The notes below the pieces were generated by a model. That model had not been told where the DNA came from. It did no database searches and was given only the letters and a program-made list of their open reading frames with translations. This document shows positions 33,881-63,593 of a stretch of 64,000 bases of DNA, one piece after another. The DNA lies in NCBI GenBank assembly GCA_947568835.1, contig OX387609.1, forward strand, positions 562,001-626,000, written 5' to 3'. The translations under genes were made by a program, and so were the position numbers. How positions within the stretch are numbered: the first letter of the stretch is position 1; each line of letters opens with the position of its first letter. This DNA comes from Protonemura montana (taxonomy: Eukaryota > Arthropoda > Insecta > Plecoptera > Nemouridae).

Positions 33881-35020
33881 AGACCAGAGATTGATATTCT
33901 GAATGGTTGTTCGAGTGCACGGGCTTTTAAATGTAATATTATAATAACACCAAGAAATGCAGGCTTCTTTGCTAATCAGAGGTTAACAAATGTATTCCAG
34001 GAAATTGAATTCAAGCTGTTCATGTTGATTGACTTGCACTGTTTTGACATCAGGTCATGTGGCACTGGTCTAATGGCGTCGGTGAATGAGTGGATGATGA
34101 TGAACCTAACCTAGCCTAGGAAGAGGAGGTGAAACCCGGTGCCGGCACGTAGCCTACTCCTGTCGAAGACCAAGGGGACCACCGGCTTAACGTCCCTTCC
34201 GAAGGACGGTACAACGCGAACAACAGGATTCCTTCACAAATCCATGCTGTCGAGAGGTTGATAAGCAAGGCGAGTGAAGTTGCTGAACTTACTTTCATCC
34301 CTCTAGCCTCTTTCACGAACAGAACTGGTCATGTGCATGATAGGCAACCATTCAATACCCGACCCAGCGCAGTGTTGCTTAACTTTCATCCCTCCAACGT
34401 CTCTCCCGAACAGAAGTGGTCATGTGTATGGTCACCCATCCAATACCTGACTCAGCGCAGTGTTGCTTAACTTTCATGCATCTAACCTCTCTCCCGAACA
34501 GAACTGGTCATGTGTATGATGGTCACCCATCCAATACCTGACCCAGCGCAGTGTTGCTTAACTTTCATCCCTCCAACCTCTCTCCCGAACAGAACTGGTC
34601 ATGTGTATGATGGTCACCCATCCAATACCTGACCCAGCGCAGTGTTGCTTAACTTTCATCCCTCCAACCTCTCTCCCGAACAGAACTGGTCATGTGTATA
34701 ATGGTCACACATCCAAAACCTGACCCAGCGCAGTGTTGCTTAACTTTCATCCCTCCAACCTCTCTCCCGAACAGAACTGGTCATGTGTATGATGGTCACC
34801 CATCCAATACCTGACCCAGCGCAGTGTTGCTTAACTTTCATCCCTCCAACCTCTCTCCCGAACAGAACTGGTCATGTGTATGATGGTCACCCATCCAATA
34901 CCTGACCCAGCACAGTGTTGCTTAACTTTCATCCCTCCAACCTCTCTCCCGAACAGAACTGGTCATGTGTATGATGGTCACCCATCCAATACCTGATTCA
35001 GCGCAGTGTTGTTTAACTTC
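33881..35020 (-). mobile_element. 5S-derived SINE with 8 internal 91-bp units (minus orientation)
   Basis: Read on the minus strand, the copy starts at about 35020 inside a 5S-like sequence (GTCACCGAAGTTAAACAAC). It continues through eight 91-bp units to about 34290. The shared 3' module follows (34296-34043), containing CGGAAGGGACGTTAAGCCGG and CATTCACCGACGCCATTA. A further 160 bp (to 33881) is shared only with the copy at 41473-42571. Each unit keeps box A (AAGTTAAGCAAC), an intermediate element (GGTCAGG) and box C (TTGGATGGGTGACC) of a 5S gene. The 5' end is truncated relative to the copy at 36465. No target duplication was found. Confidence 0.85.
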
Positions 35021-36110: not shown

Positions 36111-36450
36111 TGTTTAATCAAACAAATTTTAAGAACATTACAAGCAAACAAAAAAAAGTGTAGAATTTTGCTCTGATGAAACTGTTTTTTTCCTAAAAAA
36201 AAGCTTGGCGTAATTCAACATAAGATGTGTTACAATTGTCGACAATGATTTCTGCAAAGGTGATGTTTGTGACCTCTTTCCGACAGACTTCCTCATCACT
36301 GCGTCAATTTAACCGAGCTAAGCCGACGTCAACTTTGTCGTGAGGCCGCGACAATTCAGATAAATCTTAATCATATCAAGCCTAACGAAGAGTTAACGAT
36401 GAGAATCCAAACCAACGAACCTTTCCGAGACCGACGGAAAGCAGACAGCC

Positions 36451-36464
36451 AAACGGTCTACACC
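36451..36464. repeat. Target-site duplication, left copy
   Basis: CAAACGGTCTACAC lies immediately before the 5S-derived SINE and is repeated exactly at 37446-37459 after its TAA-rich tail. Confidence 0.9.
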
Positions 36465-37445
36465 GAACGGTTTGGCGTGTTGGAAACACCGGTTCTCGTT
36501 AGATCACCAAAGTTAAGCAACATTGCGCTGAGTCAGGTATTGGAAGGGTGACCATCATACACATGACCAGTTCTGTTCGGGAGAGAGGTTGGAGGGATGA
36601 AAGTTAAGCAACACTGCGCTGAGTCAGGTATTGAATGGGTGACCATCATACACACGACCAGTTCTGTTCGGGAGAGAGGTTGGAGGGATGAAAGTTAAGC
36701 AACACTGCGCTGAGTCAGGTATTGAATGGGTGACCATTATACACATGACCAGTTCTGTTCGGGAGAGAGGTTGGAGGGATGAAAGTTAAGCAACACTGCG
36801 CTGAGTCAGGTATTGAATGGGTGACCATCATACACATGACCAGTTCTGTTCGGGAGAGAGGTTGGAGGGATGAAAGTTAAGTAACACTGCGCTGAGTCAG
36901 GTATTGAATGGGTGACCATCACACACATGACCAGTTCTGTTCGGGAGAGAGGTTGGAGGGATGAAAGTTAAGTAACACTGCGCTGAGTCAGGTATTGAAT
37001 GGGTGACCATCACACACATGACCAGTTCTGTTCGGGAGAGAGGTTGGAGGGATGAAAGTTAAGCAACACTGCGCTGAGTCAGGTATTTGATGGGTGGCCA
37101 TCATACACATGACCAGTTCTGTTCGGGAGAGAGGTTGGAGGGATGAAAGTTAGTACAGCAACTTCATTCGCCTCGCTTATCAACCTCTCGACAGCATGGA
37201 TTTGTGGAGGAATCCTGTTGTTCGCGTTGTACCGTCCTTCGGAAGGGACGTTAAGCCGGTGGTCCCCTTGGTCTTCGACAGGAGTAGGCTACGTGCCGGC
37301 ACCGGGTTTCCCCTCCTCCCTTCTAGGCTAGGTTAGGTTCATCATCATCCTCATCATCATCCACTCATTCACCGACGCCATTAGACCAGTGCCGCAGGGC
37401 CAGTTGTCAAAACAGTGCGTCGTTAAACACCACAAATAATAATAA
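36465..37445 (+). mobile_element. Complete 5S-derived SINE with 7 internal 91-bp units and target-site duplication
   Basis: The element starts CGAACGGTTTGGCGTGTTGG and continues AACACCGGTTCTCGTTAGAT, which aligns with the 5' half of animal 5S rRNA. Box A, the intermediate element and box C follow. A linker of about 43 bp leads into six further units of 91 bp, each restarting at GATGAAAGTTAAGCAAC and repeating the 5S internal promoter. At 37142 the reading changes to GATGAAAGTTAGTACAGC. This begins a roughly 300-bp 3' module (CGGAAGGGACGTTAAGCCGG, CATTCACCGACGCCATTA) ending in GTCGTTAAACACCACAAATA and a TAA-rich tail. Perfect 14-bp target duplications flank it, so the tandem-bearing element was inserted by retrotransposition, or its array changed in place afterwards. 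Typical units lack any run of four Ts, the Pol III stop. Confidence 0.92.
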
Positions 37446-37459
37446 CAAACGGTCTACAC
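37446..37459. repeat. Target-site duplication, right copy
   Basis: CAAACGGTCTACAC is identical to 36451-36464 and directly follows the TAA-rich tail of the SINE. Confidence 0.9.
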
Positions 37460-37637
37460 ACACCGATCGCCACGGTAATGTGAGACCTCACCGCCCGATG
37501 TCACGACCGTAACCAATCCCGCCAAGCGTTGCTCGGTCTTCGAGCCTGATGAACGACTGGCCAATCACAGGCTCGCTTGGGCTTTGACCTTACGCTTATC
37601 CTGACCACCCAGTACTGAACAGAAAACAGCTGTCAAG

Positions 37638-37757
37638 GTGTTTTATTATTAACAACACTATAACCGTCTCGAAAATTGATGCCCAAACGCAGACTCAACC
37701 CCGATCTCCACCTGTCGCGGGTGTTGCTCTAACCAATTGAGCTACTTGGACACTGGA
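37638..37757 (-). mobile_element. tRNA-derived SINE, single-unit copy (minus)
   Basis: On the minus strand the head is GTCCAAGTAGCTCAATTGG, a perfect A box in a D-arm context (GCTC...GAGC), followed by AACACCCGCGACAGGTGG. A degenerate B box (GGGGTTGAGTC) comes next. The tail is GCATCAATTTTCGAGACGG then TTATAGTGTTGTTAATAATA. The tail holds TTTT, which would serve as a Pol III stop. Confidence 0.8.
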
Positions 37758-37758
37758 T

Positions 37759-37863
37759 TGTTTTTAGATAGCTCAATGGTTCAGAGCAACACCCGCGACA
37801 GGTTCGAGTCCCCATTTGGCCATCAATTTTTGAGACGGTTATTGTGTTGATAATAATAAAATA
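37759..37863 (+). mobile_element. tRNA-derived SINE, single-unit copy (plus)
   Basis: The head contains A box TAGCTCAATGG and a consensus B box GGTTCGAGTCC at 37801-37811. The tail CATCAATTTTTGAGACGG then TTATTGTGTTGATAATAATA matches the neighbouring minus copy. The two copies lie head to head and form an imperfect palindrome of about 220 bp. Confidence 0.82.
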
Positions 37864-40800
37864 CCCCGCGCATTGCAAGCGTTTGCAATTAAAATCAGAT
37901 TTCATCCTAAGCTGTCTAGGTGGCTTATAAGCTGCGACTACCAGCTGTTTTCGCAGTATGAAAGATGACCAAGACAAGGCGGTGGAAACGTTGGTTTAAG
38001 CTAAAACAATTTTGACAGAACTGCAAGCTTGACCAACGTCAGCCAGTGGCTCCAAACCACTCCTTGCCGCACTCATCTGTTTCCATCAAGTATCCTTCTT
38101 AGGTGCAGACAAGTGCAACAATTGGTTATTAAACAGCTGAGAATGGACGACGCTCACGTGCTTACTGGGTCATTCACCGATCGCTATCAATTCTTGTTAA
38201 CAAAACTTACCTTCCAGTGACGGGAGCTTTTGTTTGCAGGTCCCTTGCGTTCACGTTCGGGTGTCGTTGTATCGGCTTGCCGATGTCACTTGTTTTATCA
38301 GTCACTTGTTCTCCTCGGCACTCGACTGATCCCTTGCGAAGCGTGGTGTGCGGTCAGTTGTCCCAAGTTTCCCCGATCTGGAATTATACATCAGTGTTAA
38401 AGCTTCCTGGAGCGCGTTTAGTCTTTCCTGAAGTTCCTGAAGGCTTAGAGAAACAAGTTCTGCTAGAAGTGTGAAAGTCATTTTATTTTTATGAGTATCA
38501 AAGAGTCGATACGATCTCCAAATTTGGAAAAGTAGCGGGAAAATTGTTGAAATGTGTCTGCGGTGTAGCAGCACACGTAAGTTCAGGGCGATATGATGAT
38601 GAGTTTAATTGTGTAGTATTGTGATGGGATTGGATGGTCGCATGGGACGGCAGCGGAAAGTTTGTATCTGTAACATTACAAAGCTTGTGGCTGCTGTCGA
38701 ACTGGTCTGGACATTTGAAATAGCGGCAAGGGAGGCTGGGATTGGGCTGAGCTGACAGAGCAAAGTGGGCACAATTTAGGAGCGGTACTTGAGATTGTTA
38801 TTGCAAATATTATTTGCTAGTTACTAGCAAGCAGAAAAACGTGTAATTAATTTGAAACTATAAAAATGGATTTAAAATTGTCCATACAAAATCAGTATTT
38901 GGCCAGAAGGATTTTAGATATTCTGTAAAATGCCAAATATAGCAATTAAAAATCTGAAAAAATAATTCACGTTTGATCACAGAAAGTAGCATTATGAAAT
39001 TAAAAAGAATGAATCAACATGATGCAGAAATGTGGGATCAGACATGTGAACAAGCCTTGCAATCATCTGGATCAGTTTGCTTTCAATACAATGTATGGAA
39101 AGAAAGCCATGAAACAGAAAACTATTATAAAAATGTAGTTGTAAATAATTAATCTCGTAGGTCACCCGAAGTTTTCCAAGAGCTGAGACAGGGAACTGGA
39201 TGTTGGAAAATTATGCTAACAGATTTTCTATTGGCGAGCGAAAAAGCGAATCAATTTATTCGATCAAGTGTGTGGTTAAATAAAACAAGTGTTTTAGGTG
39301 AAAATGGCGAGATAACAGTTGGAAACCTGTTGCTAAGTAAAGCCATCTATATACCTACCCTGAGCACGACCCCCAAGTAACTTTCAATGCACAATTATCT
39401 TGCAGTTATTCGGTTTAATAATAGTGCGTAGCTCTCTAATTATTAACTAATATTATATTGGGAGTTTTATCTCACAAACAGAACTGGTTGTGTCAGGATT
39501 TGTACATTTATAACGCAATAAATCAAGTTGTCTTATCACCCAGCTAGCGGGTCGACCAGGCGTCCACTCAACGGTTTCCCGGCTCAAAATGGCGGAGCTA
39601 GGTAATATTTCCGAGTGCCCCGCCTAACGAAGACTATGGACGGCGAGTGCCGTTAAACCAATGGTAGAACAATGTCAACCAATGACGACCGACTTCACAG
39701 TAATATTTGAAATGTGAAAATCACAAATAAATTCGATAAAATTAAAGGCCAATGAAAGAATGATGAAAAAAGTGGAGATTATTATAGAAAATAAATATAA
39801 TCGTCAAGTTTCCCACGTGTACCACCCGGTATAAGTTTATAAATTATTTATCGATGATGGTAATAATTTGAATATTGTGTTCTGGCCAGCCCTGGCTTTC
39901 AGGCAATCTTGAGCCGGCAAAACTAATTTCATAGCACGAGACGAAACTAAAGTATCAGGATTGTTCAATTATTGGCGAAATCAAAGAAAAACAAATTGTG
40001 AAACTTACAGGACGGCGTTGATCGCGGTTAGAGGAACGATTACACTTATTTTTTAAGATTTTAATCGAATGTTTTTAGGACGAGTTCACGTTCATTGGCG
40101 GGAAACAGAGCGGGAAGATGTCGCGTCTCTTTGACCCAAGTCAAAAGTCATACTGGAGAGTAATAAAAATATGTGTAATAAAATATCGTCGGGTTTCATG
40201 GTGATGTTAAGATGACAAATATCTGCATGGGAGAATCTTGAGATGGGTTGGGCATCAAACGAAATTAAATTAGATGGGTTAATAATATCAGAGAAAATAC
40301 TCTCCAGTCTTCATTTGTCTCTTGCAGTCACGTGCGACTACGGAGTCAAAATGTTGTCCACGTATAAGCGTGAACTCAAATAAACAGTAAATAATATCTT
40401 AGTTGATAATTAGCGCTAGAGAACAAAAAGAAATCACTCACGGAATGACACCGACGCGGTGGAAATGAGTTGGTAGATTTATTTGCAAGACAATGTCTGG
40501 GTCGACAAGTTCACCAAGAGTCCAGCTGATCTCGATGTCACCAACCAATCTCCACTCATCACAGTTCGTGTTGTAGTTCGTGAGAGGAATTCATCGTCCG
40601 TTCGATCGTTGCCCAAACATCAAAAGTAACTAAATCAAGCAATACATGCAATAACAGCTGCTAGCAGACTTGACACGAGATCACGAGAGTAAAATAAACC
40701 GACGTCGGCAAGGTACGTATTTGTTTTAAATTTCAGTAACCCATCTAAATTGTAGTCACACAACAAATCGGTCCTACTCGTCTCGTCACATTTATTAGAG

Positions 40801-41472: not shown

Positions 41473-42571
41473 CCACGGTTTGGCGTGTTGGAAACACTGG
41501 TTCTCATAAAATCACCTAAGTTAAGCAACACTGCGCTGGGTCAGGTATTGCATGGGTGACCATCATACACATGACCAGTTCTGTTCAGGAGAGAGGTTGG
41601 AGGGATGAAAGTTAAGCAACACTGCGCTGGGTCAGGTATTGGATGGGTGACCATCATACACATGACCAGTTCTGTTCGGGAGAGAGGTTGGAGGGATGAA
41701 AGTTAAGCAACACTGCGCTGGGTCTGGTTTGGATGGGTGACCATCATACACATGACCAGTTCTGTTCGTGAGAGAGGTTGGAGGGATGAAAGTTAAGCAA
41801 CACTGCGCTGGGTCAGGTATTGCATGGGTAACCATCATACACATGACCAGCTCTGTTCGTGAGAGAGGTTGGAGGGATGAAAGTTAAGCAACACTGCGCT
41901 GGGTCAGGTATTGGATGGGTGACCATCATACACATGACCAGTTCTGTTTGGGAGAGAGGTTGGAGGGATGAAAGTTAAGCAACACTGCGCTGAGTCAGGT
42001 ATTGGATGGGTGACCATCATACACATGACCAGTTCTGTTCGGGAGAGAGGTTGGAGGGATGAAAGTTAAGCAACACTGCGCTGAGTCAGGTATTGGATGG
42101 GTGACCATCATACACATGACCAGTTCTGTTCGGGAGAGAGGTTGGAGGGATGAAAGTTAGTACAGCAACTTCACTCGCCTTGCTTATCAACCTCTCGACA
42201 GCATGGATTTGTGGAGGAATCCTGTTGTTCGCGTTGTACCGTCCTTCGGAAGGGACGTTAAGCCGGTGGTCCCCTTGGTGCTCTTCGACAGGAGTAGGCT
42301 ACGTGCCGGCACCGGGTTTCACCTCCTCCCTTCTAGGCTAGGTTAGGTTGATCATCATCCACTCATTCACCGACGCCATTAGACCAGTGCCACATAGACA
42401 GATGTCAAAACAGTGCAAGTCAATCAACATGAACAGCTTGAATTCAATTTCCTGGAATACATTTGTTAACCTCTGATTAGCAAAGAAGCCTGCATTTCTT
42501 GGTGTTATTATAATATTACATTTAAAAGCCCGTGCACTCGAACAACCATTCAGAATATCAATCTCTGGTCT
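41473..42571 (+). mobile_element. 5S-derived SINE with 7 internal 91-bp units (plus orientation)
   Basis: The copy begins with the 5S-like head ACGGTTTGGCGTGTTGGAAA at about 41474 and carries seven 91-bp units with boxes A, IE and C. It enters the 3' module at 42147 with GATGAAAGTTAGTACAGC. After GTCAAAACAGTGC (about 42412) the sequence does not continue into the GTTAAACACC tail of the 36465 copy. It runs instead for 160 bp identically with the minus-strand copy at 33881-35020. That makes these two copies, including a stretch of flank, an inverted duplication about 7 kb apart. Confidence 0.88.
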
Positions 42572-45837: not shown

Positions 45838-46005
45838 CGCTGGGATCACCGAAGTTAAGCAACACTGCGCTGCGTCAGGTGTTGGATGGGTGACCATCAT
45901 ACACATGACCAGTTCTGTTCGGGAGAGAGGTTGGCGGGATGAAAGTTAAGCAACACTGCGTTGGGTCAGGTGTTGGATGGGTGACCACCGAACGGTTCGG
46001 CGTGT
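45838..46005 (+). repeat. 5S-derived SINE fragment, about 2 units
   Basis: GGGATCACCGAAGTTAAGCA matches the 5S rRNA box A region more closely than any other copy in the window. One linker and a second unit follow, then CACCGAACGGTTCGGCGTGT, which is the 5' head sequence seen at 36465. The order head-after-unit suggests an older dimeric arrangement. There is no 3' module. Confidence 0.8.
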
Positions 46006-48720
46006 TGGAAATCTTGGGTCGAAGTCGTTGATGGAGAAGGCATCATCGAGCAGTCAGGAGGTTTTGTTTCTTTGCCGGCATATGGTTACTCTTCCCTCTT
46101 AATTCAGATGCTAGAGGTGTTAGAGAAGTTAGAGGTGTTAGAGTTGTAAGAAGAGTTATAGGTGTAAGAGGTGCTGAAGGTGTTGAGTCCCTGACCTGTC
46201 GCTGAAACAGCGCCAACCGGAAACTAGGCAAGCAGTGGACAAAAGTCGTGACTATGGTGACTTCTAAGATATTTAATAGAAAATTAGGGAACCCTAATAT
46301 AGGACCGTAGCGAATATGACAAACAAATAAAGACTAATCGGCGTCTATAGAAGCTGGTTACCACCAACTTAGTTTCCCTCAGATAACTGGTGCCCGACTG
46401 ATATCCAGTATGAAGTTGCCACTAGCATGTCATCGCGATCATGACTAGAGGCATTGAGGACGCAACGGCCTCAACCTATTCTCAAACGTATTGTTACGTC
46501 AGGCTTTGTTGTAGATTACATTTTTATAATTTTATAATTTTTAAATTGAAGAACCGAAATATTCAAACAGTTTTTCAACATATTGTCAGCCACCATGCGT
46601 CACGATGGTGAGCGTAGAAGTGTTGGCCGCATGAAGCCGCCGTCGGTACCCGCGAAGGGTTTCGACGTCGGCACGCCAACTACGACGACTAACGGACTTA
46701 CCGAGACAAATAAGAAAATACAGCAAACAAGGGCGCCAGGCTTCAGAAACCCGGCAGCCGTCGGTAATTGGACTGGTACATTTATTGATATTTTCGGATC
46801 GGGCAACAGTACCGAGCGGCGATAGTAAATACAAAAGACTCGCTGGCCAAAGGCACAACCGGCATAAATTACACGCGTGACGACGAACATTAAAAACTGG
46901 TTCACTCCCGCGTTGACAGGGGATGGTTCCTAGGTCGGTGTGTTCATAGCAAGGGTTGCCGTCGTCCAGAGCGAGGCAGGAAGACAGGTGAAGGCACCGT
47001 CCGGCCTTCGAGTCCGGTAGTAACAACAATAAATTATTCACTTGCTTCATATCAATGTTTAGATCTGTTTAGTTTTCATCCTTACCGAGGATCGAAATCT
47101 TACTCTGGGTAGCGATAGCCAGTATCGGGCGGCATGCATCGAGTGTCAAAGGCATCTTTGGACGCGTCGCCGAGGCTAATGCAACATACATATCGTCATT
47201 TCTGGGTACCTATGCGATTTCATTGTTTATGTTCGGGAAACCACACGAGGCAGAGAATGTGTTTGCTTATCCGAGGCTTAGTGCCAGCGAGTGTGGTTAT
47301 AGCGAAATACTCCCAATAAGTCCATGCAATGAATCCAGACAGAGTATGTTTAGCCGCATTTTTTAAAAAGATACCGTCGAGGCTATCGATGCGACTTGGT
47401 TAATCAAAACATCCACATCAAACATGCACTCTCATATCATATCATATCATTGTAGGCATAGTAGCATTCCCCATCACACCTGCATTATTGCATAGGTCGG
47501 TGCACCCAATTCCATTCCTACTGCACGTGCAAGTGGAGTTTACGCTGCAGGATTACTTTGATTTGATTGAAATTTTTCAACATTTCCATGGCTGTTAGAC
47601 CCTCGAAGTACACAAGCGAGACGAAATTTCTGCCCAGGCTCTGACACCAGCCACTTTCTTTGGGACCTATCACCACAAATAATAAAAATAAGAAGAAGAA
47701 AAAAATGGAGACGGCATTTAAATTCAAGTTCAAAAAAGTCTTGAATTGCTTTGAATATTACTTTGGCAAACTTACGCCATATTTTTGGAAATTGCACGTG
47801 CGAGTTTACCCAAGTGCTACATTGTCATGCAGCTCGTGTCACGTGCTGATGAACTGCCCATTCTCTCGGGGGTATTTTGGCAATTGAGATAGGTCGCGAC
47901 ACTGCTATCTTAAAACGCAGCGCATTTAGCGAGTAATGAAACTTTCGGAATTCCTTGTTTGTATCGTACAATTTAACCACCAAACTTCGATCGGTGCGCA
48001 CCATTTCCAAAATGTCTTGGTCTGCCAATTTGGCCAAATGTGACAACTCGTCACATTTAATTCAGTTGACGCCAGATCCTTTATTTACCGATTCCGAAAA
48101 CCGAACAAAACAGTGTCACAGCCGGACAGTGCATGCTCATTCACCGTCACCATAAGACCAGTGCTGCATGACCAGATGTCAAAACCCCAATAATCAATTA
48201 TTCAATCAATAGATTTTCGTTCGGTAGTTGAAGCCGGGTTTAGTTACTCAAGATAGCAAGAAATCGTGTCGTGGATAATTTTAAACCCATTTAGAAAATT
48301 CGGGCTCAAATTTTCTTCTACCTCAAGAAACCTCATTATGCTGTCATCATTTTACAAGATGTTTCAATTCGACAATCTCAATGGGCTGCTTGTTGGGGTC
48401 AGGCTCAACCAGCGGCACATCCTGATAAAACATGGCTGACATTTAAATACCCCTTAGGAGGCTACAATCATGCCCGCTAAGCCAATCAGGAACTCAGCAA
48501 TGGACCATGGGAAAAAAGACCATACGCGCAAATTCGAACATAAAGAAATTAAAAATATTGCGAATAATTCAAAGATATACAAAAACGACTTCAATCTATG
48601 CACAAAATTAAATAAATCACATAAAATGACATAAAAATGACTTATATACTGAGAATGCACTAAAAGGACACAATTACGACTAAAATAATAAACTTACCAG
48701 AGAAGCGTGAATGTCTAAAT
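46006..48720. other. 2.7 kb low-copy DNA, no supported gene
   Basis: Overlapping frames exist on both strands around 46583-47050 (plus 46583-46825, minus 47050-46586). Neither has a recognisable domain, and at least one must be a shadow. The minus frame 48046-47825 contains LADQDILEMVRTDRSLVVKL and looks protein-like, but lacks recognised homology or clear splice sites. 46090-46190 is a purine-rich (AGAGGTGTTAG) low-complexity patch. 48136-48210 holds a SINE 3' fragment. Confidence 0.5.
48136..48210 (+). repeat. Fragment of 5S-SINE 3' module
   Basis: CTCATTCACCGTCACCATAA followed by GACCAGTGCTGCATGACCAG and ATGTCAAAAC matches the end of the 3' module. A CAATAATC-type tail follows. Confidence 0.7.
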
Positions 48721-49290: not shown

Positions 49291-51920
49291 ATTCCAGTTT
49301 TACAAGCACCGCAAACTCGTGACATTCCTTTTCATCCAGGGATCCCAATTAAAAGGCTATAGGGTTGTAAATTTTTATATCACAACACAATATATATATA
49401 ATGACATTAACATCGCCATCAAATACAATTCAAATGTTTTAACAATATCTGAATTACTACTCACGTGTTTGTGTTCACGTAAATCTTGCTAACTGTGAGA
49501 GTGATTTATTTGATATTTCCAAGCGTTTGTTCCGTGAGGTCAGTGGTCATGGCCGATTATAATCTGTGATTTGTGAAGATTATAATCAATCGCCCAGCAT
49601 TAGCTTAACTTAAGACGCGCGAAAACCATGAAAAACGAACGTCCGAGGCGGGCCTCACGGGTGCAAACGGGAACATTATGCAGGCGAGCGATAAAGTCCT
49701 ATGGCTTGTAAATTTGGTCACATGAATCTCAAAGCATCTGAGGAAACTCTACTCTCCCTTATGACTCTATCTGCTATGATTTTACGTTAACTTAATTGAT
49801 CACAATATTACATATTCTAGGCGTAAGGCAAACTAAGATAAAAAAACACAACATGAGAGAAGACAAAAAAAATTGGACATGAAAACTAGAAGATCAAATT
49901 AACCTAATTCCAGCGACCCTCAACGATGGACAAAGTGACAAAGAAACGACCATTCTACACCAAAACCGAACAAATCTAACAAATCTAACAAACCTAACAA
50001 ACCTAACAAACCTAACAAACCTACTACGGTTCGGTACCGAACCAATCTAACTGTGAAAAACGAAACAGCCTCTAGCAAGAACCTACAACAATCCAAAACT
50101 TGGACAGGAAGTCTAACAACAATGGCCTTGTCCCCAAATTTTTCTCGACTTCTCTCATGTCACACAAATGAATCAAGAATTATGAATATTTCCCGAACTC
50201 GAGACTTGAACAGCCTCTGAACTGACGTGACGTTAAGCCCCACAAAGCAAGCAATTAAATATGTTATCTATCTAACAAAAGTTGCCCCATGTTTCCTCAG
50301 ACGCCTGATAAAACTCTCACAGAGCGTTCTTGCTACAATTTCCAGGGCTTGAAGCAAGGTCTCGTCGGAGGAAGCCAAGATGCATCGGCTTCCAGCAGCG
50401 ACTCGTGGAGTTCATCTGAAGACAACAGAATAAAGTGACATTAGATTCATTGCCAGGTACATGACGACTCTTGCACTCAGTAAAACATGCTCCGGACAGC
50501 TACGTTTACTCGGGGAAAAGTGCAAATCCAGCTTTTGAACGAAATGAAACATGGGCTTTATTTTACTTGTCATGAACCTTTGATTGGGTTTAGTTTTGTC
50601 AGCTGTTTTCTAGTGTTCACGACGGGTCGAAAGTCAGTGCAAAATGCAAACGAACTGTTGTGGAGATCAAGAACTAGTTTTTGCTAACATTGCACTGCTT
50701 CATTGAATGTGGAAAATGTGTGGAAAAAGTGAAGAACTGGCAAACAAAGAACTATTTTCTTGTGGACTTGAGAACTTGGATAAAGCTTGCGCTGATATTT
50801 CATTGTTGGGGACGAAGGATTAACATAATATATTTGTGCCAGCATTGTTGGGATCTGTCAATAGAGTGCGTTTACCATTGCGGTAAGTGTATCAGTCATA
50901 TATTATCAGATGTATGTGAAGGCTCGTGCCAACTTACATCTATCGACGCTGCAGTAGCGACGTCTCGATGACGCAGGTAGGAGATCGGATTCTGTCCCAC
51001 CGCGACCAGCAATCAGATCGCGGACAACGTTCCATGTAAACCAAGGCTTGAGTGGAAACCTGCGTGAAAAGGAAGGCCGCGGATTAGTCGACACATTCAA
51101 TTAGTTTCCGCTAGACGGTCGCTAGCAACAACTTTTTCAGGTGAAGTTCAAGTATGTACCACGTGAGTTAAAGAGGCTGGGGGTCGATTTCACGAATTGG
51201 AACAGATTCTTTGAGAGGGTAGTTGTGCACGCTATCAGTTTATTTCTAATTGTTAGCATTTTGAAATGAAATGTCATCTTGCAATGAAAGCTTTAGTTTG
51301 GAGCAGGGAGCTTGACATCCATGCAGTACTACTGAAGTAAGATGGTTCAAAGCGTACCTCTAGTTTTGTGGTCCGGCACATTCCATCGTAAGTCTCTTGT
51401 CTGAGGGAAGTCGTATCGCTCTGGTTCCTCGATGTCTTCACGATCACTTTCCTTGATCGTGACCAAAAACTGCAGACAAAACAAAAAATACGTTAGTCAC
51501 GAGTACCAGCAGTTGGCAACGCCACTGGGACGGGGAGATGCGACATTTAAACAAGCAAACGATGGACGGACTCGTTTAGTGCAAGGAAAGTTGGAAGAAA
51601 CGATTCTTTGCAGGGGATTTATTGTGGAAAATGCTGATCGAATCCTGGCTTACCATTGGTCAGTCGAGCAGCGTATCCATCTTCATTCTTAACCAGGGTC
51701 TCGGGAGACGAAGATTTACGGGCGCCGATTCTGTAGCCTCGCGGTCAGCTGGGAATCAAAGGACTTAAATGAAACAAACTTTATGCGGAAAAATTTCATT
51801 GGGCGCAGATATGCACCATGTTTGACAGTTATTATGTTAATCTAGTCAAGAGTCGACGATTCATCGGTCTCTACTCAACTTGTTAAATAATTTGTAATAT
51901 TTATTTGTTGGCTCACCTTT
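49291..51920. other. 2.6 kb low-copy DNA; one weak exon candidate
   Basis: A short CCTAACAAA repeat lies at about 49970-50025. At 50346-50438 an acceptor (TTGCTACAATTTCCAG) precedes GLKQGLVGGSQDASASSSDS and then an acidic-serine tail and stop. This resembles a terminal exon, but no upstream exons were found. Other frames (50681-50971, 51432-51692) have no recognisable content. Confidence 0.4.
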
Positions 51921-52336
51921 GTTGCCACGGCGACTGGCCAGGTACTGGGAGTCGAACCAGAACCCTCTTCTAAACTGCGTTCCATCTTTGTTGCCACGGC
52001 GACTGGCCAGGTACTGGGAGTCGAACCAGAACCCTCTTCTTAACTGCGTTCCATCTTTGTTGCCACGGCGACTGGCTAGGTACTGGGAGTCGAACCAGAA
52101 CCCTCTTCTAAACTGCGTTCCATCTTTGTTGCCACGGCGACTGGCCAGGTACTGGGAGTCGAACCAGAAACCTCTTCTAAACTGCGTTCCATCTTTGTTG
52201 CCACGGCGACTGGCCAGGTACTGGGAGTCGAACCAGAACCCTCTTCTAAACTGCGTTCCATCTTTGTTGCCACGGCGACTGGCCAGGTACTGGGAGTCGA
52301 ACCAGAACCCTCTTCTAAACTGCGTTCCATCTTTGT
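51921..52336. repeat. 69-bp tandem array, 6 copies, open on both strands
   Basis: GTTGCCACGGCGACTGGCCA starts units at 51921, 51990 and so on with near identity. Since 69 is 23 codons, several frames stay open. The longest (minus 52412-51861, 183 codons) reads GTQFRRGFWFDSQYLASRRG-type 23-residue repeats with short unique ends. Each unit also contains, on the minus strand, GGTTCGACTCC, an exact consensus Pol III B box. I cannot tell whether the open frame is used. Near-perfect DNA identity including silent sites argues for recent expansion rather than protein selection. Confidence 0.9.
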
Positions 52337-53139
52337 TGCCGAGATGATGATCAAGTTGGTAGCCATGGAGCTGATGCAACAATTGGCCAGTCGAGTTGGT
52401 AGCATTGTTCACGTTGCAACTTGAAGACGCCGCTGTCAGACTGCGGACTTTACGTTCGCAACAATGAAATCAAAAAAAAAAACTGTGTTATTGCCTGGCA
52501 GTTGATTATTAGACGCTGAAAGATGAAGGTGTCCGTCATTAGGTTCCTGTGACGTGGATTAAACATGGACATAAGTTAGTGATAGAGAAAAGCAAGTAGA
52601 AATAACATCAAACGCAATTAGTACAGTCAGGTACAAAATCAAAAACATAGTCGCGAACAGGTACATTTATAAACATTAACACAAACATTAACACAAACAG
52701 GAACATTTAAAGCCACAACATTTGTTACAATCTTACACTTGACAACCACAACAGTTCCTGATTCCAAACTCTCGTTCCCACCACGATTCCTCCAGTTCAG
52801 ATCGTGCCAGCTATACAGGCCGGCAGCATAAACGCAGTAAAAACGCAGTAAAATCGCATCAAAAACGCAGAATAAACGCAGAATAAACGCAGAATAAACG
52901 CAGAATAAACGCAGAATAAACGCAGAATAAACGCAGAATAAACGCAGTAAAAACGCAAGACTTATCACGGTACCGAAGCGAAATCGTAATGAACGCTGAG
53001 GAAAGAGGTCGTAGTATTAGCGCTTCGAGTGGAGTGTGCATCATGCGGTGCCCACATGCCATGCAGAAGATGAAGACTCGTCGGCTCGTGGACCCGTTGG
53101 CTCGTGGATGACTGCTACCTGTAGATACCTGTTGCCTAA
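52337..53139. other. Low-copy DNA with an 11-bp repeat
   Basis: Only the AATAAACGCAG array is notable. The minus-strand ORFs 52968-52639 and 53188-52859 translate that repeat (FILRLFCVYSA) and are not genes. Confidence 0.6.
52835..52962. repeat. 11-bp tandem repeat (AATAAACGCAG), about 11 copies
   Basis: About seven perfect AATAAACGCAG units are flanked by degenerate ones (AAAAACGCAGT, AAAATCGCATC). Confidence 0.93.
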
Positions 53140-53857: not shown

Positions 53858-54612
53858 GTATTTTTTTATTAAGAACACAAATACCCTCTAAAATATAGAT
53901 GATTCAACGAGGACTGGAATCTCGTTCTCCACCTGTCACGAGTATTGCTCTAACCAATTGAACTACTTGGACCCCGATCTCCACCTGTCGCGGGTGTTGC
54001 TCTAACCAATTGAGCTACTTGGACCCCGATCTCCACCTGTCGCGGGTGTTGCTCTGACCAATTGAGCTACTTGGACCCCGATCTCCACCTGTCGCGGGTG
54101 TTGCTCTAACCAATTGAACTACTTGGACCCCGATCTCCACCTAGGTCGCGGGTGTTGCTCTAACCAATTGAGCTACTTGGACCCCGATCTCCACCTGTCG
54201 CGGGTGTTGCTCTAACCAATTGAGCTACTTGGACCCCGATCTCCACCTGTCGCGGGTGTTGCTCTAACCAATTGAGCTACTCGAACCCCGATATCCACCT
54301 GTCACGGGTGTTGCTCTAACCAATTGAGCTACTTGGACCCCGATCTCCACCTGTCGCGGGTGTTGCTCTAACCAATTGAACTACTTGGACCCCGATCTCT
54401 ACCTGTCGCGGGTGTTGCTCTAACCAATTGAGCTACTTGGACCCCGATCTCCACCTGTCGCGGGTGTTGCTCTAGCCAATTGAGCTACTTGGACCCCGAT
54501 CTCCACCTGTCGCGGGTGTTGCTCTACCCAATTGAGCTACTTGAACAGGAGACTTACTTTGGAGAGGATTTTAGTGAATTTAATGAGAACGACGAATCTT
54601 CAAGGACCAAGA
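53858..54612 (-). mobile_element. tRNA-derived SINE with 12 tandem 52-bp heads (minus)
   Basis: Read on the minus strand: a leader (54612-54546, CACTAAAATCCTCTCC) similar to that at 55352-55422; then twelve 52-bp units built on GTCCAAGTAGCTCAATTGG and AACACCCGCGACAGGTGGAG; then a tail (about 53905-53858, GAATCATCTATATTTTAGAG, TTTGTGTTCTTAATAAAAA). The tail is a diverged version of those of the single-unit SINEs at 37638 and 37759. Every unit retains an A box and D arm, but the B box is fused into the next unit's 5' end (GGGGTCCAAGTAGC). TTTT occurs only in the tail. Confidence 0.85.
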
Positions 54613-55351: not shown

Positions 55352-55842
55352 CAGCCTCTTGGTTCTACTCCTTGGAGATCCGTCATTCTCATCAAATACA
55401 CTAAAATCATCTCAAAAAGCCAGTGTCCAAGTAGCTCAATTGGTTAGAGCAACACCCGTGACAGGTGGAGATCGGGGTCCAAGTAGCTCAATTGGTTAGA
55501 GCAACACCCGCGACAGGTGGAGATCGGGGTTCAAGTAGCTCAATTGGTTAGAGCAACACCCGCGACAGGTGGAGATCGGGGTCCAAGTAGCTCAATTGGT
55601 TAGAGCAACACCCGCGACAGGTGGAGATCGGGGTCCAAGTAGCTCAATTGGTTAGAGCAACACCCGCGACAGGTGGAGATCGGGGTCCAAGTAGCTCAAT
55701 TGGTTAGAGCAACACCCGCGACAGGTGGAGATCGGGGTCCAAGTAGCTCAATTGGTTAGATCAACACCCGTGACAGGTGGAGATCGGGGTTCAAGTAGCT
55801 CAATTGGTTAGAGCAACACCCGCGACAGGTGGAGATCGGATT
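55352..55842 (+). mobile_element. tRNA-derived SINE with 8 tandem 52-bp heads (plus), tail missing
   Basis: The leader 55352-55422 (CACTAAAATCATCTC, CAGTGTCCAAGTAGCTC) precedes eight 52-bp units (A boxes near 55437, 55489 and onward to 55801). Two junctions read GGGGTTCAAGTAGC and the rest GGGGTCCAAGTAGC. After the eighth unit the sequence leaves the element without the usual tail, so the 3' end is truncated. It lies in opposite orientation to the 12-unit copy. Confidence 0.85.
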
Positions 55843-57526
55843 GAAACGCAGGTAACCAGAAATTAAATAAACTAGGCAACACGCGAGGGTTATAAAACCA
55901 ATGTTTGTAGCAGGTTTTGTGAAATGAAGAGGAATGACAAAGCATTGAAAGACTCACCCAAACAATGAAGCGACGACTCCATCTTGTCTTTCATGGGCGG
56001 TCAATGTTCGTCCATGTTGCTGCTCTTGGGTTGAAGGCGTCCCATGTCTGAAAAACAGACGCCATTATTAGACAATTAAACACATTCTAACCACGACTCC
56101 TCGTTGCCTGCAACAAGTGCAATTGTACGCCATTCGTTCAGCAAAGCTACAACAGCGTTTTGAAGTTAATTGCAAAAATAATGTCAAAATGAAGTGGATA
56201 TTGAAATAAACGATAGCAGTAAATCTAATAATGATTGTAATAGCGCCTCTGATATTGCATCCCCGTATTTTCTCTGCTGTTAAAGTTGAAGCCAAATAGA
56301 TTATTTATAATTAAAAATGCTGGGTTAAATGTCCTCGGGTAGATTCTAATTCATACTAATAACATTAATGTACACGATGTGGCGACCGAGAGTCGAGCTG
56401 CGACGATTGAATTATTTAGTTGAATTGTAAAAAACGTAAAATGTCAAGTTACCGAAATAATTTGAGAGACATTTCGAGTCAACAGCAAGCAAGTTGATCT
56501 TCCACAGAGTTGTCTTGGCCAAGAGACGAGAAGACAGCACAACGTTCTCGTCGGAGAGTTCAGAAGCGAATGCCCGAGCTCCGCTAAAAACAGCCAGTAA
56601 ACGGTTGGTGCGTGTTGGCGGGAAGTGGACTACCTGCTAATTGAACGACGCCACCTGGCTGCATGCAGTGGTACTTAGCCGAACTGCTTGGAAAATATGA
56701 ACACATTCAAGAGAAAACATATTCCTCGGCACAAATTTTTCTTGCACTTACGAAACAAATTGATTTACCGTACAATTTCACAAAATAAATATAGTTTGGT
56801 AAATATATGTGTACCCTAGCTACTTCCCCAGTTGCATGCATAGATGGATAGCTCGCTAGGTACATAAAAGATGGCGTTTTAATAGCAGTGTTTTATGCGG
56901 TTGATCTTTATAATTACAAGAGCATAGCGCTAGATTTTATTAGAATCGTAGTGTTTAATGTCATTGTCAACGGTCTTTAAAATTTACAAAAACTGCGTCA
57001 AATCTCCTAAAAATCCGTCAATTAAAGATAAAAATATGAAAATTAGGAATTCCATTTCTCAAAATACTTTTGGTAGCTCTGAAAAAGGCTCGAAGCCTAA
57101 GATAAGTGAATATTTGTTGAGTTTTCTTGCTCACTTTCCTAATCTAGTGCATTTATTTGATCGTGTAGCATTTTGTTAGTTTGCATAAAACTTTGATACC
57201 GACGGCACACATATCTAATTGAGTGGTGATTAATATACATCGACAAAAAGTCTACCTAAACGAGGCAGTTATTTTCTATAAATAGCTGAACAACGTTTAA
57301 TGCGTACCCCAACTATTACCTAATCACATACCTGTCCTTTGTGTGGTAAAAATTCGCTGAGAAATATGTGACCCTCTCCGCAGAGAGGTATGCCAATATG
57401 TCAAATGTGATGAAAGCGGTCAAAGTTATTTAAAGCTCAATTCGTCATTTGATCGTGTATCTGCAGTGTACAGGACTTTAGCTCGTCGAAAGATAAAACC
57501 AAGAAAGACAAACAAAATGTGAAAAG
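55843..57526. other. 1.7 kb low-copy DNA, no supported gene
   Basis: No recognisable domain, array or element. Frames at 56295-56068 (minus) and 56958-57179 (plus) are short and unremarkable. Confidence 0.6.
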
Positions 57527-60500
57527 GGTGACCATCATACACATGACCAGTTCTGTTCGGGAGAGAGGTTGGAGAGATGAAAGTTAAGTAACACTGCGCT
57601 GAGTCAGGTATTGGATGGGTGACCATCATACACATGACCAGTTCTGTTCGGGAGAAAGGTTGGAGAGATGAAAGTTAAGTAACACTGTGCTGGGTCAGGT
57701 ATTGGATGGGTGACCATCATACACATGACCAGTTCTGTTCGGGAGAGAGGTTGGAGAGATGAAAGTTAAGCAACACTGCGCTGGGTCAGGTATTGGATGG
57801 GTGACCATCATACACATGACCAGTTCTGTTCGGGAGAGAGGTTGGAGAGATGAAAGTTAAGCAACACTGCGCTGGGTCAGGTATTGGATGGGTTACCATC
57901 ATACACATGACCAGTTCTGTTCGGGAGAGAGGTTGGAGGGATGAAAGTTAAGCAACACTGCGCTGGGTCAGGTATTGAATGGGTGACCATCATACACATG
58001 ACCAGTTCTGTTCGGGAGAGAGGTTGGAGGGATGAAAGTTAAGCAACACTGCGCTGGGTCAGGTATTGGATGGGTGACCATCATACACATGACCAGTTCT
58101 GTTCGGGAGAAAGGTTGGAGGGATGGAAGTTAAGCAACACTGCGCTGAGTCAGGTATTGGATGGGTGACCATCATACACATGACCAGTTCTGTTCGGGAG
58201 AGAGGTTGGAGGGATGGAAGTTAAGCAACACTGCGCTGAGTCAGGTATTGGATGGGTGACCATCATACACATGACCAGTTCTGTTCGGGAGAGAGGTTGG
58301 AGGGATGAAAGTTAAGCAACACTGCACTGGGTCAGGTATTGGATGGGTGACCATCATACACATGACCAGTTCTCTTAGGGAGAGAGGTTGGAGGGATGAA
58401 AGTTAAGCAACACTGCGCTGGGTCAGGTATTGGATGGGTGACCATCATACCCATGACCAGTTCTGTTCGGGAGAGAGGTTGGAGGGATGAAAGTTAAGCA
58501 ACACTGCACTAGGTCAGGTATTGGATGGGTGACCATCATACACATGACCAGTTCTGTTGGGAGAGAGGTTGGAGGGATGAAAGTTAAGCAACACTGCGCT
58601 GGGTCAGGTATTGGATGGGTGACCATCATACACATGACCAGTTCTGTTCGGGAGAGAGGTTGGAGGGATGAAAGTTAAGCAACACTGCACTGGGTCAGGT
58701 ATTGGATGGGTGACCATCATATACATGACCAGTTCTGTTCGGGAGAGAGGTTGGAGGGATGAAAGTTAAGCAACACTGCACTGGGTCAGGTATTGGATGG
58801 GTGACCATCATATACATGACCAGTTCTGTTCGGGAGAGAGGTTGGAGGGATGAAAGTTAAGCAACACTGCACTGGGTCAGGTATTGGATGGGTGACCATC
58901 ATACACATGACCAGTTCTGTTTGGGAGAGAGGTTGGAGGGATGAAAGTTAAGCAACACTGCACTGGGTCAGGTATTAGATGGGTGACCATCATACACATG
59001 ACCAGTTCTGTTTGGGAGAGAGGTTGGAGGGATGAAAGTTAAGCAACACTGCACTGGGTCAGGTATTGGATGGGTGACCATCATACACATGACCACTTCT
59101 GTTCGGGAGAGAGGTTGGAGGGATGAAAGTTAAGCAACACTGCACTGGGTCAGGTATTGGATGGGTGACCATCATACACATGACCAGTTCTGTTTGGGAG
59201 AGAGGTTGGAGGGATGAAAGTTAAGCAACACTGCACTGGGTCAGGTATTGGATGGGTGACCATCATACACATGACCAGTTCTGTTTGGGAGAGAGGTTGG
59301 AGGGATGAAAGTTAAGCAACACTGCACTGGGTTAGGTATTGGATGGGTGACCATCATACACATGACCAGTTCTGTTCGGGAGAGAGGTTGGAGGGATGAA
59401 AGTTAAGCAACACTGCACTAGGTCAGGTATTGGATGGGTGACCATCATACACATGCCCAGTTCTGTTCGGGAGAGAGGTTGGAGGGATGAAAGTTAAGCA
59501 ACACTGAACTGGGTCTGGTATTGGATGGGTGACCATCATACACATGACCAGTTCTGTTTGGGAGAGAGGTTGGAGGGATGAAAGTTAAGCAACACTGCGC
59601 TGGGTCAGGTATTGGATGGGTGACCATCATACACACGATCAGTTCTGTTTGGGAGAGAGGTTGGAGGGATGAAAGTTAAGCAACACTGCGCTGGGTCAGG
59701 TATTGGATGGGCGACCATCATACACATGACCAGTTCTGCTCGGGAGAGAGGTTGGAGGGATGAAAGTTAAGCAACACTGTGCTGGGTCAGGTATTGGATG
59801 GGTGACCATCATACACATGACCAGTTCTGTTCGGGAGAGAGGTTGGAGGGATGAAAGTTAAGCAACACTGCGCTGGGTCAGGTATTGGATGGAAGACCAT
59901 CATACACATGACCAGTTCTGTTCGGGAGAGAGGTTGGAGGGATGAAAGTTAAGCAACACTGCGCTGGGTCAGGTATTGGATTGGTGACCATCATACACAT
60001 GACCAGTTCTGTTCGGGAGAGAGGTTGGAGGGATGAAAGTTAAGCAACACTGCGCTGGGTCAGGTATTGAATGGGTGACCATCATACACATGCCCAGTTC
60101 TGTTCGGGAGAGAGGTTGGAGAGATGAAAGTTAAGCAACACTGAACTGGGTCAGGTATTGGATGGGTGACCATCATACACATGACCAGTTCTGTTCGGGA
60201 GAGAGGTTGGGGGGATGAAAGTTAAGCAACACTGCACTGGGTCAGGTATTGGATGGGTGACCATCACACACATGACCAGTTCTGTTCGGGAGAGAGGTTG
60301 GAGGGATGAAAGTTAAGCAACACTGCACTGGGTCAGGTTTTGGATGGGTGACCATTATACACACGACCAGTTCTGTTTGGGAGAGAGGTTGGAGGGATGA
60401 AAGTTAACCAACACTGGGCTGGGTCAGGTATTGGATGGGTGACCATCTTACACATGACCAGTTCTGTTGGGAGAGAGGTTGGAGGGATGAAAGTTAAGCA

Positions 60501-62530
60501 ACACTGCGCTGGGTCAGGTATTGGATGGGTGACTATCATACACATGACCAGTTCTGTTCGGGAGAGAGGTTGGAGGGATGAAAGTTAAGCAACACTGCAC
60601 TGGGTCAGGTATTGGATGGGTGACCATCATACAAATGACCAGTTCTGCTCGGGAGAGAGGTTGGAGGGATGAAAGTTAAGCAACACTGCGCTGGGTCAGG
60701 TATTGGATGGGCGACCATCATACACATGACCAGTTCTGTTCGGGAGAGAGGTTGGAGGGATGAAAGTTTAGCAACACTGTGCTGGGTCAGGTATTGGATG
60801 GGTGACCATCATACACATGACCAGTTCTGTTCGGGAGAGAGGTTGGAGGGATGAAAGTTAAGCAACACTGCGCTGGGTCAGGTATTGGATGGAAGACCAT
60901 CATACACATGACCAGTTCTGTTCGGGAGAGAGGTTGGAGGGATGAAAGTTAAGCAACACTGCGCTGGGTCAGGTATTGGATGGGTGACCATCATACACAT
61001 GACCAGTTCTGTTCGGGAGAGAGGTTGGAGGGATGAAAGTTAAGCAACACTGCGCTGGGTCAGGTATTGAATGGGTGACCATCATACACATGCCCAGTTC
61101 TGTTCGGGAGAGAGGTTGGAGAGATGAAAGTTAAGCAACACTGAACTGGGTCAGGTTTTGGATGGGTGACCATCATACACATGACCAGTTCTGTTCGGGA
61201 GAGAGGTTGGGGGGATGAAAGTTAAGCAACACTGCACTGGGTCAGGTATTGGATGGGTGACCATCACACACATGACCAGTTCTGTTCGGGAGAGAGGTTG
61301 GAGGGATGAAAGTTAAGCAACACTGTGCTGGGTCAGGTATTGGATGAGTGTCCATTATACACATGACCATTTCTGTTTGGGAGAGAGGTTGGAGGGATGA
61401 AAGTTAACCAACACTGGGCTGGGTCAGGTATTGGATGGGTGACCATCTTACACATGACCAGTTCTGTTGGGAGAGAGGTTGGAGGGATGAAAGTTAAGCA
61501 ACACTGCGCTGGGTCAGGTATTGGATGGGTGACTATCATACACATGACCAGTTCTGTTCGGGAGAGAGGTTGGAGGGATGAAAGTTAAGCAACACTGCAC
61601 TGGGTCAGGTATTGGATGGGTGACCATCATACAAATGACCAGTTCTGCTCGGGAGAGAGGTTGGAGGGATGAAAGTTAAGCAACACTGCGCTGGGTCAGG
61701 TATTGGATGGGCGACCATCATACACATGACCAGTTCTGTTCGGGAGAGAGGTTGGAGGGATGAAAGTTTAGCAACACTGTGCTGGGTCAGGTATTGGATG
61801 GGTGACCATCATACACATGACCAGTTCTGTTCGGGAGAGAGGTTGGAGGGATGAAAGTTAAGCAACACTGCGCTGGGTCAGGTATTGGATGGAAGACCAT
61901 CATACACATGACCAGTTCTGTTCGGGAGAGAGGTTGGAGGGATGAAAGTTAAGCAACACTGCGCTGGGTCAGGTATTGGATGGGTAACCATCATACACAT
62001 GACCAGTTCTGTTCGGGAGAGAGGTTGGAGGGATGAAAGTTAAGCAACACTGCGCTGGGTCAGGTATTGAATGGGTGACCATCATACACATGACCAGTTC
62101 TGTTCGGGAGAGAGGTTGGAGGGATGAAAGTTAAGCAACACTGCGCTGAGTCAGGTATTGGATGGGTGACTATCATACACATGACCAGTTCTGTTCGGGT
62201 GAGAGGTTGGAGGGATGAAAGTTAGTACAGCAACTTCACTCGCCTTGCTTATCAACCTCTCGACAGCATGGATTTGTGGAGGAATCCTGTTGTTCGAGTT
62301 GTACCGTCCTTCGGAAGGGACGTTAAGCCGGTGGTCCCCTTGGTGCTCTTCAACAGGAGTAGGCTACGTGCCGGCACCGGGTTTCCCCTCCTCCCTTCTA
62401 GGCTAGGTTAGGTTCATCATCATCATCCTTATCATCATCCACTCATTCACCGACGCCATTAGACCAGTGCCGCATGGCACGTTGTCAAAACAGTGCTAAG
62501 TTAAACACCACAAAATAATAATAATAATAA
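57527..62530 (+). mobile_element. 5S-derived SINE with about 51 internal 91-bp units
   Basis: The array starts abruptly within box C (GGGTGACCATCATACACATG), so the 5' head is missing. It runs about 51 units of 91 bp to 62216, then enters the 3' module with GATGAAAGTTAGTACAGC, CGGAAGGGACGTTAAGCCGG and CATTCACCGACGCCATTA. It ends GTTAAACACCACAAAATAAT plus a TAA repeat. Almost every unit keeps 5S box A, IE and box C. A GCGCTG/GCACTG difference in the IE region groups neighbouring units, and only rare units (60337, 61153) contain TTTT. The short ORFs here (MCMMVTHPIPDPAQCCLTFI and the reverse) are repeat translations. Confidence 0.93.
60340..62340. repeat. 1,000-bp higher-order repeat (11 units) inside the 5S-SINE array
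   Basis: Rare marks recur exactly 1,000 bp apart: GTTAACCAACACTGGGCTGG (60404 and 61404), GTTCTGTTGGGAG (60463 and 61463), GTTCTGCTCGGG (about 60643 and 61643) and GTTTAGCAACACTG (60766 and 61766). Eleven 91-bp units, one lacking a base, make 1,000 bp. This shows block duplication of many units at once. Confidence 0.9.
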
Positions 62531-63593
62531 ATTTGTAAACTGTGTAATTTCATGTAACAAGGGTTATTACCACATACATCGGTAAGGGGCCTGTCTCTTC
62601 CTCTACATTCACTTGGAAATTGACACCCCAAATAGAGATTGCGAAAATTGATTGAAAACAACCGGAAATGGTTTTAAAATGAACATTATTTGTAAGCGTT
62701 TAAACATTTATAAACATTCAAACGAGATCACACAAATAAATGACAGTAAAATCGTACTTACAATAATTTAAATGAGAAGGCACATAATTAGTTTCAGACC
62801 AATCTTTCACACCTTGTCCTGGCCGTATCAATGCAGTTCGAATTCTAGTTCTGAATTATAATTTCTGTTGTTACGGTTACGTAAACCTTCTCACTAAGTA
62901 TTCATTGATAACTTGTAAAATTATTTAAGTGAATAAACAACCGAAGTCTGATAAATAAATGTGAAATCATTTCCATCTGAAATTGTTCGATGACTTTGTT
63001 CGTGACGTCACAGTTCGTGAACATGGCCGCCTGTCACAGCTGAGCTTGGCGAAGTAGGATTTTAGTTTTGACTAAATATGTAAATTACGTCTTGCATCAA
63101 TAGAATTTCGCTGTTCAAAGTTAAGAAAGGATGCAGGTCGCTGATCAAGTTAATGAATTAGATCTTCATGGTTGGTACAAGAGATCTAATAGAAGATAAC
63201 ATGGTAGCTGATGGTAGGTAGTGGTCGTAGGCTCGAATTCTTCATTCTATAGTCAGAGCTATAGTGTTTATAAATTGGTTTGTTCTCTTCACCAGGACAC
63301 CTGCTTCTGTCTAAGCGTTCAACGAGGAAGCAGCATTGGGTCTGACCAACCTTGTAGCATAGACGACTCTGGGCTGAATGTTCGATGTCAACATTAGGAA
63401 GACGATTCAATCCAACCTCGAGTGGCTTGTTTAGCTTGATTTCATGAAATCCTTCTTCAGAAGGTTGCTAACCAAGAGAAAAATGTGAAGCTCGCAGACA
63501 CCGCAAGAAAAACACAGTGCTTCGTGCTCTCCACCACATTTGCGTTGGTACCTAATTGAACTGGGTTTTGACTGTTAAGTAAATACTAAGTAA
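62531..63593. other. Low-copy DNA before the Penelope-like fragment
   Basis: No gene is supported. A TGACGTCA palindrome occurs at about 63004. Near 63440-63475 the minus strand reads CTTCTGAAGAAGG followed by the palindrome GATTTCATGAAATC, a motif of the kind found near Penelope-like termini. Confidence 0.5.

Follow-up and report, generated by a model that had tools for sequence, protein, structure and literature searches.

The 5S-rRNA-derived SINEs described to date include zebrafish SINE3, AmnSINE1, OS-SINE1, and the insect element HaSE3 (PMC3747384; PMC3272025). As presented in these sources, SINE3-type SINEs combine a 5S-like head bearing the boxes of a type 1 promoter with an unrelated body, a LINE-like tail, and target duplications, and the element studied here is built in the same way (PMC3747384; PMC3272025). 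They are described there with one 5S head, whereas in many copies of the present family the promoter segment is repeated 2 to approximately 52 times. Tandem arrays are also known from Satellite 1 of Xenopus laevis and Hy/Pol III of Hydromantes, in which the tRNA-related region of a SINE-like element is repeated (PMC9659126). These two are tRNA-related and are listed in that source as satellite DNA (PMC9659126); in contrast, most arrays of the present family keep a 3' module, and some are flanked by target duplications. Part of a SINE has likewise been tandemly amplified in PcH-sat, a limpet satellite from Nin-SINE; according to the published account, however, PcH-sat comes from the 3' part of the SINE, has no boxes A and B, and is pericentromeric (PMC11121367), unlike the promoter-unit arrays here.

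In this study, we analyzed a 64,000-nucleotide stretch of the Protonemura montana genome (C12:562001-626000; hereafter, the window), which contains a SINE with seven promoter units approximately 0.6 Mb from the left end of C12 (18.2 Mb). Two-headed SINEs, such as Twin of Culex, have a fixed pair of tRNA heads. They resemble the present element in having more than one promoter region per mobile unit and differ from it in that Twin has no variable-number array. No described family with a 5S-promoter VNTR in a SINE was found among the matches listed in the open-access literature, and we know of no described family with such a promoter-array structure. Both Pol III satellites of SINE origin and SINEs with two heads are already known; a retrotransposed 5S-promoter VNTR appears to be new.

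Anatomy of the element and its family

The target insertion and the other family elements of the window are as follows.

36450-37459: whole target insertion including the target duplications (5S-like head, seven units, one 3' module, and TAA tail)
36450-36463, no strand: left 14-bp target duplication CAAACGGTCTACAC, read from the letters; a single joined-flank copy with 3 mismatches is present at an empty paralogous site
36464-36509, plus strand: head of 46 bp, the 5' half of a 5S-rRNA-like sequence (Rfam RF00001)
36510-37146, plus strand: seven tandem units of exactly 91 bp each, with AAAGTTA at either end
37147-37445, plus strand: single 3' module, starting AAGTTAGTACAGC and ending in the TAA-rich tail AATAATAATAA
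37446-37459, no strand: right 14-bp target duplication CAAACGGTCTACAC
34036-35019, minus strand: second family element, with eight units, a 3' module, and at most a head remnant
41475-42416, plus strand: third family element, with a head, seven units (one with small deletions), and a module; no clear target duplication
57526-62524, plus strand: fourth family element, headless, with 52 units including a partial first one (from unit position 37), a module, and a TAA tail; no clear target duplication

The array of the target gave 97% matches in TRF (score 1204). Rfam 5S_rRNA (RF00001) matched the head plus the first unit over model positions 1-120 with 59.9 bits (E = 3.3e-12 for a 461-base stretch and 4.6e-10 for the window). 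Letters, TRF, and Rfam therefore bear out the anatomy proposed in an earlier note on this DNA, namely a 5S-like head, seven 91-bp units, and one module with a TAA tail. The canonical head starts with (A)CCGAACGG, and the same start is found in single-unit copies with target duplications. In the target, the repeated segment reads CACC(AAAGTTA)AGC ... GATG(AAAGTTA)GTAC, with AAAGTTA at both ends; where the head of a copy ends in CACCG, the shared repeat is only six bases, AAGTTA. Box A, the intermediate element, and box C were read by eye, at the places and under the names that we take to be theirs. Every unit shows a clear box A and a clear 5' portion of box C, and the 3' portion of box C has drifted away from 5S. 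The earlier claim that each unit contains all three thus holds only for the core. TTTT is absent from the target element, so Pol III could read through it; in the family, TTTT occurs in 26% of modules and 4% of units, and the tail is a short-repeat TAA tail.

A second register with a period of 92 bp, comprising the head and unit positions 1-45, was seen at L088:440-680 and as a spacing of 92 at C12:11909068-11909378, which indicates that the head has been tandemly duplicated in more than one way. At 45852-46011 of the window, a unit is joined to a head at the junction point of this register.

The whole genome (258.5 Mb, 34 contigs) was searched for the head and the junctions, as the earlier note had proposed, and these were found in thousands. 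With 3 mismatches allowed, the head matched 6,672 times, the unit-to-module junction 9,290 times, and the unit-to-unit junction 26,402 times; reversed control patterns gave no matches in the genome at 3 mismatches. Many copies are dispersed, and 5'-truncated ones also occur. By the homology of its head, its duplications together with an empty site, its dispersed copies, and its truncations, the element is a 5S-rRNA-derived SINE of the SINE3 type. Before counting, 12 of the 98 parsed elements were dropped as duplicates of the target insertion or of host repeats shared between loci.

Unit number was sampled on C1 in the first 30 exact matches listed for the head and for the unit-module junction, which is not a random draw and covers one chromosome end. 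Among the 30 head-chosen loci, 27 could be parsed: 26 have a single unit, shortened in two cases, and one has two units. The remaining three had no recognized unit-module junction. The 30 junction-chosen loci comprised 20 one-unit copies and 10 with two to at least 17 units. One unit is the norm in these samples. The seven units that had been reported for the target are one state of a labile array and not a fixed trait of this copy. Multi-unit copies made up 9 of the 10 loci at 0.5-1.5 Mb of C1 versus 1 of the 20 at 1.8-15.2 Mb (first 30 listed; Fisher p = 6.7e-6). Further arrays lay more interior, several of them within larger repeated host sequence. L082 and L094-L099 (C1: 20.98, 22.42, 23.32, 25.10, and 26.09 Mb) have flanks in common, indicating that SINE arrays are carried there by a larger repeated host sequence. 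In three of these places, the arrays form an inverted pair a few kb apart.

Arrays and modules mostly occurred together; their independence had been named in advance as the outcome that would count against a SINE with an internal array. In loci chosen solely by unit-unit junctions, 15 of 21 arrays ended in a 3' module and six did not. In all fetched sequence, the figure was 38 of 46, which is biased upwards since many loci were chosen by a module junction. Arrays with the same left context were counted once, and those running off the edge of a locus were left out. The arrays are mostly, not always, part of the SINE, and some are decoupled from it; independence of a mobile element, by which satellite DNA would be recognized, was not what the arrays displayed.

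Family fragments and several other repeats are also present in the window. As read by eye, the 34036-35019 element has a 3' flank in common with the 41475 element. A 21-kb block of the hexamer TCGTCT (4-21334) is followed by other tandem arrays to approximately 33.3 kb. At 51917-52340, a 69-bp unit with a box-B-like GGTTCGACTCC on the minus strand is repeated six times and is bounded by a short GGCAACAAAG repeat (by eye), a candidate for a further tandemly amplified head of Pol III-like type. A 52-bp tRNA-like unit with a box-A-like TAGCTCAATTGGTTAGAGC forms two inverted arrays, at 53926-54543 and 55425-55839, their arms 97% complementary over 403 bases and approximately 0.9 kb apart. The target SINE has a MITE-like element as its neighbor (37637-37865); the inverted ends of this element are 65 bp long (85%), and an inverted pair of the tRNA-like sequence of the 52-bp arrays lies between them. 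ARAGORN, run with bacterial settings, found no tRNA within the window. A decayed reading frame was read by eye at 63560-64000; its motifs presumably resemble those of a Penelope-type reverse transcriptase.

Insertion and subsequent change in unit number

The target insertion is bracketed by a perfect 14-bp duplication, as had been reported, and a homologous empty site with a single copy of the 14-mer exists elsewhere. The target flanks joined at one 14-mer copy had a single genome match, at C4:21940862-21940896 (L083), with 3 mismatches. The alignment to L083 extends through both flanks, at 81% over 460 columns, and lacks the element; this related locus with flanks, one 14-mer, and no element indicates that the target is a real insertion. 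L080, which has a lone 14-mer, was considered as an empty site and rejected because its flanks are unrelated and the match is due to chance. Joined-flank searches of the genome found no empty sites for L085 and L103. For L097, a sequence 74% identical to the joined flanks was present without the insert.

The test for target duplications took in the 68 elements, among 86, for which both flanks and a nearly intact 3' end were available. In 26 of them, a word of 9 bp or longer recurred in the two flanks, against a mean of 0.2 when flanks were randomly re-paired (longest word among the re-pairings, 10), which excludes chance. Single-unit elements had such a word in 18 of 40 cases and multi-unit elements, at a lower rate, in 8 of 28; the other 20 multi-unit elements had no duplication of 9 bp. 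The one-unit copies start with (A)CCGAACGG and finish in the tail, and many have duplications of 9 to 14 bp.

The 14-mer of the target occurs 26 times in the genome, 25 times in 14 copies of the target insertion (the window's included) and once in the unrelated L080. All 14 copies lie within 2 Mb of a contig end, and for 11 the distance is under 1 Mb. Copies at left ends are on the plus strand and those at right ends on the minus strand, the pattern that duplication between chromosome ends would be expected to leave. As assembled, they have 1, 3, 3, 3, 4, 5, 5, 5, 6, 6, 6, 6, 7, and 7 units. Six pairs, from two groups of three copies, are without differences in 838-900 flank bases, and the members of every pair differ in unit number, by one to three: for example, L074 and L081 have 7 and 4 units with 0 differences over 838 flank bases, and L002 and L078 have 3 and 6 units with 0 differences over 884. 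As the same insertion with identical flanks holds unlike unit numbers, unit number changes after insertion. These pairs support one of two possibilities that the earlier note had raised, that of a head expanding quickly after insertion. L072, whose downstream flank is the most different among the copies (8/380), has one unit, so the target copies do not fix unit number at insertion. The upstream flanks of L070 and L072 are strongly unlike the rest; this divergence probably lies beyond a breakpoint and gives no age estimate.

Arrays also exchange sequence. L069, a copy of the target insertion, carries the 3' flank of another family element, which indicates that arrays recombine with each other. 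In L082 and L094, the units form a higher-order repeat of four, a pattern that usually marks unequal exchange. All seven units of the target have A at unit position 22, and several duplicates of the target insertion hold units with G, so exchange between loci is also at work.

Origin of the multi-unit copies

Multi-unit copies with an exact duplication were found at unrelated sites, together with two whose duplications lie in simple sequence.

Target: seven units, 14-bp duplication
L010: two units, 14-bp duplication
L103: seven units, 13-bp duplication
L097: four units, 15-bp duplication
L087: five units, 10-bp duplication in simple sequence
L108: two units, 12-bp duplication in simple sequence, 3 nt from the head

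L085 is headless; its first unit is cut at position 53, and seven full units and the module follow (eight units). An exact 14-bp duplication, AAACACTGGACTCC, stands on both sides, flush with the cut. Since the cut unit is without its first 52 bases and slippage cannot rebuild full units from it, the template of L085 most likely had at least two units. L105 (four units, cut at 56, 9-bp duplication) points the same way more weakly. Twelve headless copies begin within a unit and retain the module. Nine of them are multi-unit; seven of these nine have no duplication of 9 bp, including L089 and L100, whose left edges are unclear. Some copies appear to have jumped with several promoter units already present. 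The other possibility raised earlier, that the promoter VNTR is part of the inherited unit, is accordingly supported for at least two units by the duplications at unrelated sites and by L085. Internal-promoter starts were considered as the origin of the headless 5' ends at unit positions 36-63 and dropped: a start would be expected at approximately position 45, 47 nt before box A, and the 12 ends lie at 11, 12, 37, 38, 39, 42, 53, 56, 61, 62, 63, and 64 (42 being L100, with its edge in degenerate repeats), without a peak at 45. The headless ends neither support nor exclude internal starts.

Two unit lineages were distinguished by unit position 22, where G, in our alignment to a 5S sequence, is presumably the 5S-like state, in or near the intermediate element. 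Of 47 one-unit copies, 34 had A and 11 had G; G was found in 132 of 174 internal units (85 of 124 without the 52-unit element). In the 22 head-bearing arrays, the first unit had A in 14, versus 8.9 expected in random order (p = 0.0046), and the order A-then-G was seen nine times versus G-then-A once (two-sided p = 0.021). In L103, the first unit has A and six units have G, and A-then-G also occurs in L097, L107, L016, L015, and L017. Exact counts across the genome, 68 A to 90 G next to a head and 2,880 A to 7,691 G next to a unit, agree in direction, with a modest contrast. In a tree of the 3' modules of 73 of the 86 elements (module of at least 220 bases), multi-unit copies clustered, with 14 changes against a shuffle mean of 24 (0 of 500 shuffles as low). 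The tree was poorly resolved (51 of 70 inner branches open), and the multi-unit copies did not form one clade.

These results are probably best explained by SINE insertion, change of the array after insertion, and reverse transcription of multi-unit templates acting jointly. It has to be weighed against an account in which every array arose after insertion: a one-unit SINE would insert, its promoter segment would expand as a minisatellite, mostly near chromosome ends, and multi-unit RNA would never be reverse-transcribed. The predominance of one unit in the samples, the fast shifts of unit number at one insertion, the contrast between the left end of C1 and its interior among the first 30 loci listed, and the scatter of multi-unit copies across the module tree all suit such an account. 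It is nevertheless quite unlikely, because copies cut within a unit cannot regrow the lost part and yet 9 of the 12 headless copies hold further full units, because one of them is flush with an exact 14-bp duplication, and because the two unit lineages are mixed in a recurring order. Evidence against the joint explanation comes from the same copies, since just one truncated multi-unit copy, L085, has a long exact duplication, L105 has 9 bp, and the other seven have none of 9 bp; a truncated copy might, moreover, have gained units through conversion by other arrays. The lower duplication rate of multi-unit elements, the poor resolution of the module tree, the one-unit copies with G at position 22, the modest contrast in the genome-wide counts, the TTTT in some modules and a few units, and the lack of an empty site for L085 and L103 in the joined-flank searches also count against it. 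That the template RNA of some copies itself held two or more promoter units is strongly supported.

Arrays might instead be made in one step at insertion, if the reverse transcriptase slipped between the AAAGTTA repeats of a one-unit RNA and so copied the unit repeatedly. The position of these repeats exactly at the unit ends fits slippage, which would also account for truncated multi-unit copies with duplications, and slippage retrotransposition in a SINE's tail was reportedly described by Tu et al. in 2004 (cited in PMC3747384). Slippage predicts identical units at birth, however, and L103, with its 13-bp duplication, consists of one A unit and six G units; the same order in the five further arrays tells against it as well, although later conversion could also yield such an order. 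We consider one-step slippage unlikely. Finally, the arrays could be passengers, multiplied by duplication between chromosome ends and within larger host repeats and not by their own retrotransposition. This holds for the present copies of the target, whose insertion was itself spread between chromosome ends, and it agrees with the flanks common to L082, L094, and L096 and with L097 and L099, which represent a single insertion within a repeated host. Several of the multi-unit copies, however, differ in their flanks and have exact duplications of their own, and the distinct flanks speak against passenger status at L010, L085, L087, and L103; as a general explanation it is very unlikely.

Under the joint explanation, the first duplication of the promoter segment would have taken place between the AAGTTA or AAAGTTA repeats at the unit ends. 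Arrays would then grow, shrink, and swap units after insertion by unequal exchange or conversion, as the higher-order repeats and recombinant flanks suggest, and recombination near chromosome ends may be the motor of this change. Some multi-unit copies would be read through in transcription and reverse-transcribed, either whole or 5'-truncated. The target may be one such insertion, afterwards spread by duplication between chromosome ends.

Implications of promoter arrays in a SINE

A more far-reaching proposal is that this SINE lineage has a type 1 Pol III promoter VNTR in its transposing RNA, with each unit putatively starting transcription, the arrays acting as self-renewing multi-start sources, and unit number selected for transcript output. 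We regard this as doubtful. Promoters derived from 5S are thought to be weak in new places and reliant on upstream signals (Kapitonov and Jurka, cited in PMC3272025). Tandem 5S promoters in one SINE would put an upstream unit ahead of a downstream unit. With copies in the thousands and unit numbers from one to dozens, the genome offers a natural dose series in which transcript output and new insertions can be related to unit number. The family presents a satellite-like array formed within a mobile element and apparently moved by it.
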